The notes under the pieces: model-generated
What the model was told of the DNA's origin: nothing
Databases searched by the model: none
What the model saw: only the letters and a program-made list of their open reading frames with translations
NCBI GenBank assembly: GCA_026989095.1
Contig: JALSKA010000246.1
Span: 1-38,509 of the forward strand
Source: Ardenticatenaceae bacterium
Lineage (GTDB): Bacteria; Chloroflexota; Anaerolineae; Ardenticatenales; Ardenticatenaceae
DNA length: 38,509 nucleotides
Direction: 5' to 3'
Made by a program: the position numbers and the translations under genes
In this document: piece after piece, positions 5,965-13,262 of the stretch
How positions within the stretch are numbered: position 1 is the first letter of the stretch
Layout of the letters: each line of letters opens with the position of its first letter

Positions 5965-5968
<4 letters not shown>

Positions 5969-6345
5969 GCACACGGGTGCTGCTGGTGGAGGACAACGAG
6001 CTCAACCGGAACATGTTGAGCCGGCGGTTGCAGCGGCGCGGGTTCGACGTGATCACCGCGGAGGACGGCGTGGAGGCGCTGGAGCTCGCCCGCCGCGAGA
6101 GGCCCGACATCATCCTGATGGACATGAGCCTGCCCCGCATGGACGGCTGGACGGCCACGGCTCGCCTGAAGCAGGACCCGGAGCTGGCGAACATCCCGGT
6201 TATCGCGCTCACGGCCCACGTCATGTTGGAGGACCGCGAGAAGGCCCTGCGCGCCGGGTGCGACGAGTACGAGACGAAGCCGGTGGATTTCAAGCAATTG
6301 CTGCGGAAGATCGAGCGCCTGCGGCTTCGGGGTTCCCGGGAGTGA
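5965..6345 (+). CDS. Single-domain (CheY/DivK-like) response regulator
   Basis: A 126-residue stand-alone receiver starting at ATG 5965, with GGGAGG five nt upstream and a 4-nt overlap with the kinase stop. The acidic pair E9/D10, phospho-acceptor D53 (ILMDMSLP), T83 and K105 (ETKPVDF) are all present, and there is no output domain. It is likely the direct target of the preceding kinase, passing phosphate or a protein contact to another component. A longer reading of this frame from 5665 lies inside the kinase gene and is not needed. Confidence 0.92.
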
Positions 6346-6347
6346 AG

Positions 6348-6903
6348 TCACGCGAGGGAGTAGACCACCCACCCCGCTCCGCGCTGCCAGTCGATCTCGG
6401 CCTCGAGCACCCCCGGCTGCTCGAAGAGGAGGCCGCGCACGGCGGCCGCACAGCCGCTTCAGGTCATGCCTTCGATGGCGAGCGTAGCTCTGCGCGGCGA
6501 CGTCAGGTTCGATGTCGGCGCTGCCGGAGCACCCTGTGCGGGCTGGGCCGGCGCTGCTTCGGGGGCCAGTGAGCGGTAGACGAGCGTGGGGGTGACGTAG
6601 GTCAACAGCACATAGCTTGCCGCGAAGCTGATCAGCGCCACACTTGGGAACAGCCACACGTGGCGCTGATGTTGTGTGACGTCGCAGGTCTGTCGGCTGC
6701 GCCGCAGGGTGACGGCGAGGCCGGCCAGCGTGAACGTCGCCCCTGCGGCCAAGAAGTAGAGCCGGTATTGGATCAGGCCGAACAGGAAGATGGCCCCTGT
6801 GAGCCCGAGCAGGGCGGCCACGGTGGGGCCCAAACAGAATGACCCCGCCGCTCACGCCCCAACGGGTGCCCGGGTTGCTCTGAGGCAATTTCGGCGCGGG
6901 CAT
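6348..6903 (-). pseudogene. MerT-like membrane protein with C-terminal HMA domain; frameshift plus in-frame TGA at the metal-site Cys (pseudogene or selenoprotein)
   Basis: The reading starts at ATG 6903-6901 with GGGAGG upstream (MPAPKLPQSNPG...). The frame must shift by one base at the GGGG run at 6846-6843; removing one G joins it to FCLGPTVAALLGL, a MerT-like first membrane helix with its Cys. Three hydrophobic helices and a loop with one Cys (RQTCDV) follow, then a Pro/Ala linker and IEGMT. There a TGA (6461-6459) replaces the codon expected to be the first Cys of GMTCxxC. Translation past it gives 36 residues that fit an HMA domain (SGCAAAVRGLL, PGVLEAEIDW, GWVVYSLA) and ends at TGA 6350-6348, two nt from the convergent regulator gene. 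A 6-bp hairpin with a 5-nt loop starts 12 nt after the TGA. MerT/HMA proteins move Hg(II) or other soft metals; the substrate here is unknown. Confidence 0.7.
6431..6461 (-). promoter_or_regulatory. Candidate bacterial SECIS hairpin after in-frame UGA
   Basis: After UGA (6461-6459), 11 nt lead into GGCCGC (6447-6442), loop CGUGC (6441-6437) and GCGGCC (6436-6431). Loop distance from the UGA (about 18 nt) and a G at loop position 2 agree with general features of bacterial SECIS elements. In 70% GC DNA such a hairpin can arise by chance, so this is weak support alone. Confidence 0.3.
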
Positions 6904-13154: not shown

Positions 13155-13262
13155 GCGGATCCCTTCGGCAGCCCGGCCGCCCTAGCGTGTGTGACACACG
13201 CCGTAGGCCCTCGGCTTTGCGCACCTGCCTTTCGACAGGATTGCCCTTTCGGAAGATCCGTC
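13155..13262 (-). ncRNA. c-di-GMP-I (GEMM) riboswitch
   Basis: On the minus strand the aptamer shows every hallmark of the class. P1 is formed by GGATC (13259-13255) with GATCC, plus a UUC/GAA extension. Then comes AGGGCAAUCC, a hairpin CCUGUC-GAAA-GGCAGG with the GNRA tetraloop, and the GCGCAAAGCC junction. GGCCUA, a perfect GCGUGUG-UCA-CACACGC hairpin and UAGGGC make the tetraloop-receptor arm, followed by GCCGGGCUGCC. The base equivalent to position 20 of the Vibrio Vc2 aptamer is G, favouring c-di-GMP over cyclic GMP-AMP. It sits about 240 nt upstream of the S8 peptidase start with a terminator between, so it should control transcription of that gene. Confidence 0.92.

Follow-up and report, generated by a model that had tools for sequence, protein, structure and literature searches.

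Does an in-frame TGA within a metal-transport gene encode selenocysteine (Sec), or is it a stop that has silenced the gene? The question was raised by a MerT-like frame on the minus strand of the window, by which we mean the whole analysed stretch of 38,509 nucleotides from an Ardenticatenaceae bacterium (assembly GCA_026989095.1, contig JALSKA010000246.1). An earlier note on this DNA had proposed Sec, the alternative being a decaying gene in which TGC had simply mutated to TGA. The frame was compared with homologues from the same class and phylum, and the genome was searched for the genes of Sec synthesis and insertion.

The in-frame TGA and its reading frame

The MerT-like frame opens at position 6851 of the minus strand and leads into IEGMT; past the TGA at 6461..6459 it reads SGCAAAVRGLLFEQPGVLEAEIDWQRGAGWVVYSLA before a TGA stop at 6350..6348 (Table 1). 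Alignment with homologues placed the internal TGA at the first Cys of the GMTCxxC metal site of a heavy-metal-associated (HMA) domain, where the earlier note had located it. The frame past the TGA was also as described there, except that it holds 36 codons and not 34. The earlier note's claim that they complete an HMA fold is wrong: the Pfam HMA profile matched the window copy with 29.1 bits over profile positions 1-33 of 62 only, versus positions 1-58 in the intact homologue from the same genus (G004), to which the window copy is 69% identical (alignment A1). With Cys replacing U, both proteins reached the gathering score of PF00403 (24.8). For Pfam MerT (PF02411, gathering score 32.9) the window copy scored 13.4 bits, and G004, at 30.0 bits, also fell short. 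No start codon lies upstream in the MerT core frame of the window, and the ATG at 6903 sits in another frame. Ahead of the core frame, a further TGA (6854..6852) was considered as a second Sec codon and rejected as a frame-shift artefact, the relatives having no TGA there. Elsewhere in the window, a c-di-GMP-I riboswitch aptamer was detected at 13164-13255 on the minus strand (68.7 bits).

Table 1. Positions of features at the MerT-HMA locus, numbered along the window.
Feature	Position	Strand	Remark
MerT-HMA remnant, open between the preceding stop and the final one with the TGA read through	6348..6851	-	
TGA where GMTCxxC has its first Cys; predicted to be the family's Sec codon	6459..6461	-	TGA in 6/6 close homologues
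Final stop, about 27 codons before that of relatives	6348..6350	-	
Out-of-frame N-terminal stretch with ATG at 6903..6901, resembling the start of relatives	6838..6903	-	
Site of 11-nt deletion relative to relatives	6837..6838	-	Placed by eye; MAFFT gap within a few bases
17-nt hairpin, 6 bp, 5-nt loop CGTGC, 11 nt past the TGA; predicted SECIS upper stem-loop	6431..6447	-	
Possible lower SECIS helix, 5' side	6451..6455	-	
Possible lower SECIS helix, 3' side	6415..6419	-	
Convergent response regulator gene, abutting the truncated 3' end of the remnant	5965..6345	+	

Conservation of the TGA among homologues

Genomes of the class (n = 396) were searched with the same-genus homologue (P0004, U written as C) at E <= 1e-8. 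A match was found in 11 genomes, and in six of these, the window's own genome (G000), G004, G133, G112, G009 and G056, a MerT-HMA fusion was identified; in the other five (G097, G154, G207, G331 and G335) HMA matches lay inside frames of 825-967 codons. One such match, in an 888-codon frame (L063, G207 C246:14229-14537), contained one TGA and one TAA. All six fusions read GMT-TGA-SGC at the identical codon, and the five relatives of the window copy are spread over five families (f1, f2, f25, f6 and f18). The G009 copy is cut by a contig end, its contig beginning inside the gene. A second class-wide draw returned the same five relatives and no further one, and a search of the order of G112 recovered G112 alone. 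None of 19 pattern matches in viral contigs was a relative, and plasmids gave no match.

More distant homologues carried Cys at this position. A phylum-wide draw of 400 genomes gave matches in five (the window's own, G451, G632, G664 and G676), among them a fusion with Cys at the Sec position (G451, YMGCEGC), a separate MerT preceded by a Cys HMA-like gene (G632) and a sequence reading GMTCASC (G664). A scan of genome contigs yielded 28 loci, mostly matches to the HMA part; the single locus read, L025, is a fusion from Bacillota whose site, GMTCSGC, shows Cys where the close homologues have TGA. The alignment of homologues that the earlier note had called for returned TGA at one codon in every close MerT-HMA homologue found and Cys in the distant fusions L025 and G451.

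Sequence beyond the TGA was conserved in the five relatives, for 62-65 codons. These post-TGA codons are under constraint: pN/pS was 0.25-0.53 when the relatives were compared with one another (ten pairs), and pairing each of the five with the window copy gave 0.33-0.65, highest for G009. Before the TGA it was 0.43-0.73 over all 15 pairs. TGA also serves as the ordinary stop that ends the homologous genes of G133, G112 and G009. Random stops and indels across the gene, which the earlier note had said would refute Sec if present in close relatives, were not seen in the relatives; the window copy itself carries an indel.

Selenocysteine genes of the host and its relatives

The selA, selB, selC and selD look-up suggested by the earlier note found all four in the window's genome, so that the absence of selB or selC, which would have counted against Sec, does not apply. 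SelB was found on contig C193 (352 bits) in a frame bearing SelB winged-helix domains, and was directly followed by tRNA-Sec (74.4 bits, gathering score 47). SelD scored 366 bits, and SelA was present as two pieces at the ends of two contigs (528 and 82 bits). The selD gene (C91, L085 1135-1137) itself holds an in-frame TGA, giving CAGUASK when the TGA is read as U, and is predicted to encode a second selenoprotein of this genome; the TGA falls at what we take to be the known Sec/Cys place of SelD.

Of the five MerT-HMA relatives, the search for Sec genes covered G004, which was found to have tRNA-Sec, SelA and a TGA-bearing SelD. A TGA was also present in SelD of G001, G002, G004 and G005. 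G005, of the same genus, has SelD with the TGA, no SelA match and no tRNA-Sec above the gathering score in a genome that is 86% complete.

A hairpin downstream of the TGA

The earlier note had described a hairpin shortly after the TGA with a G in its loop, compatible with a SECIS element, and this was confirmed (Table 1). One review (PMC8659212) gives the prokaryotic SECIS upper stem-loop as 17 nt long and 11 nt from the UGA, and the bSECIS model, as set out in PMC13188914, allows a loop of 3-9 nt with G among its first two bases, a stem of 4-16 bp, a distance of 16-37 nt from the UGA and an energy of -7.5 kcal/mol or lower. The window hairpin, with a 5-nt loop, 6 bp, 17 nt spacing and -11.2 kcal/mol, lay within every one of these limits when scored as the earlier note had proposed. 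Applied to 11 ORFs of the window, with 7005 in-frame codon positions in all, the model as coded here also accepted 1181, and 58 of the 7005 had a loop at exactly 17 nt with a stem of at least 6 bp. For this reason the hairpin alone is not striking and is weak evidence on its own; its conservation is better evidence.

Across the six sequences, 95.5% of cells were paired, the hairpin loop was conserved, and three of 11 pairs had changed on both sides. With six sequences only, four of 500 shuffles reached the covariation score, and 57 reached the observed count of pairs changed on both sides. Third positions after the TGA were invariant in codons 6, 7 and 9 and varied once in codon 8, with two to four bases at most others. 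The -7.5 kcal/mol limit was reached by the bare hairpin in three of six sequences and by the 17-nt stretch in five; the window hairpin was the strongest of the six. When a longer stretch was folded, the lowest-energy structure departed from the consensus in several sequences.

Lesions in the window copy

One MerT-HMA locus was found in the window's genome, and relative to the five homologues it is damaged at both ends. An 11-nt deletion has taken out what corresponds to Ala-Ser-Leu, together with most of the codon for the first Cys in the Cys-Cys pair, and leaves the ATG at 6903 out of frame. At the other end, the 36 post-TGA codons compare with 62-65 in the relatives; some 27 C-terminal residues are absent, the last part of the HMA domain among them, and DNA similarity to the relatives ends at 6352, adjoining the end of the convergent response regulator gene. 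No merA adjoins the window copy.

The lesions look recent. The frame holds 166 codons with no stop besides the Sec TGA, and its codons still appear to be constrained, so that either the decay is recent or the indel could be an assembly error. Judged from its sequence, the window copy is most likely a dying gene, a recent pseudogene. Of the earlier alternative of a TGC to TGA nonsense mutation in a decaying gene, decay is thus probably right, through lesions elsewhere in the gene; a simple nonsense mutation is rejected because the TGA is common to the five relatives.

Gene neighbourhood and the probable link to mercury

Four of the five relatives have a MerA-like C-terminus (LSCCAG) encoded upstream of the fusion gene on the same strand. 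For G004, domains of flavoprotein disulphide reductases and an HMA domain were recognised in this upstream ORF; in the other three the upstream gene would, from its tail, be MerA. The window's genome has a MerA gene above the family cut-off on another contig (C106, L091 9771-11249), followed by a histidine-kinase-like frame on the other strand, and no merT was seen beside it on that contig. The merA linkage and the family names point to mercury as the probable substrate.

A DsbD/CcdA-looking membrane protein is encoded by the next gene downstream of MerT-HMA in G133 (L081 4929-5678, minus strand) and G112 (L082 3211-3915, plus strand), and G056 has an apparent remnant of such a gene after MerT-HMA. 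Pfam gave E = 0.0068 for the G112 gene and nothing for that of G133.

Relation to known families

The best NCBIfam match of the family described here was NF033556 MerTP_fusion (mercuric transport protein MerTP), which has the same domain order and is presumably a Cys family; its cut-off of 180 bits was reached neither by G004 (70.8) nor by the window copy (38.9). NF045683 MerT_CopZ_Se ('MerT/CopZ fusion-like heavy metal transport selenoprotein') has the same plan of MerT plus a CopZ/HMA arm, with Sec by its title. Compared by title and score, it stands apart, G004 scoring 43.9 bits and the window copy 16.5 against a cut-off of 375, and because of this gap for G004 the family was not filed under it. 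Over 400 phylum genomes, NF045683 gave 49 matches, none above the cut-off, the best of which (G579) was an ordinary merT gene with a Cys-type merP after it. NF041115, the UxxU metal-binding (seleno)protein, is likewise HMA-type, mercury-related and Sec-containing, but differs in its UxxU motif, as against UxxC here, and matched with 53.8 bits against a cut-off of 95.

Within the literature on mercury-transport selenoproteins, on Sec with merA, on Sec in Chloroflexi and on annotation pipelines, only tables in three papers were found to bear on the subject (PMC13188914, PMC9312934, PMC2398784). The tables of the first two list a putative mercuric transport selenoprotein of the MerT family (PF02411, ABB16073.1), and besides it a UxxC-bearing cation ATPase and a metal-binding protein whose motif is UxxU. 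ABB16073.1 resembles the present proteins in combining the MerT family with Sec; its listed motif is C/SxxU, in contrast to UxxC in the HMA arm here. The MerP selenoprotein tabulated in an ocean survey (PMC2398784) is also HMA-type, mercury-related and Sec-containing, and is listed there with no motif. Sec-containing MerT-HMA proteins are therefore a known kind, of which the present family is probably a separate UxxC subfamily.

Discussion

The TGA at this locus is most likely the Sec codon of its family, a prediction well supported by the TGA in all six close homologues, the Sec machinery of the genome, the Cys of distant homologues and the conserved SECIS-like hairpin. We consider it highly probable that the two parts of the answer hold jointly, namely that the TGA is the inherited Sec codon of a mercury-operon MerT-HMA protein and that the window copy is a recent pseudogene. 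The conserved TGA, the Sec genes and the lesions were observed; Sec insertion, mercury as the ligand and the loss of function are inferred.

A different account of the same locus is that a shortened selenoprotein still works in this genome, starting at an internal TTG (6833) and ending 36 residues after Sec, or that the true gene is longer and the deletion arose in assembly. The 166 codons with no stop besides the TGA, the pN/pS of the window pairs after the TGA, the strength of the window hairpin and the Sec machinery of the host are all in keeping with such a product. The frame begun at TTG lacks both the start region found in the relatives and their Cys-Cys pair, its HMA domain is cut at position 33 of 62, and there are two independent lesions, one at each end; we regard this account as unlikely. 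That UGA is read as some residue other than Sec, for example Trp or one inserted by suppression, is very improbable: a conserved TGA alone does not fix the identity of the residue, but distant homologues have Cys at the position, the genome has the Sec set and a second TGA in SelD, and TGA terminates other homologous genes. Least credible of all is a plain nonsense mutation with no coding meaning, since, for all that the window copy has other lesions and TGA is an ordinary stop of homologous genes in G133, G112 and G009, the same TGA followed by 62-65 conserved codons recurs in five relatives of five families, otherwise intact where covered, and the genome has Sec machinery.

With the TGA taken as an inherited Sec codon, the protein would be a MerT-like importer fused to an HMA metal-binding arm with the site GMTUxxC. 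In the relatives with an intact gene, decoding of the UGA would fall to SelB and Sec-tRNA, aided by the hairpin just downstream. In the known mer system the MerT Cys pair takes in mercury and MerA reduces it. In the present family the selenol-thiol (Sec-Cys) pair of the HMA arm may capture Hg(II) and pass it on to the membrane Cys pair, to be taken inward and reduced by MerA encoded next door. The window copy would descend from such an intact gene and would have since lost its frame in the N-terminal part, one Cys codon of the membrane pair for the most part, and the last section of the HMA domain; its function was presumably lost with them. A broader proposal, that Sec serves to bind metal rather than to catalyse redox reactions in a merA-linked importer kept in five or more families of a single class, and that the window's gene is being lost from a host that keeps its Sec machinery, is in our view evenly poised between being right and being wrong.

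An apparent nonsense mutation thus becomes a well-supported case of recoding. The copy in the window carries a caution: by ancestry it would be a true Sec gene, and yet it would also be a pseudogene. Automatic annotation may well label the genes of this subfamily as truncated, which is possible because the subfamily stays under the cut-off of the NCBIfam Sec model. To the known Sec-containing MerT-HMA proteins, these genes add a subfamily, linked to merA, in which selenium and mercury probably come into direct contact.
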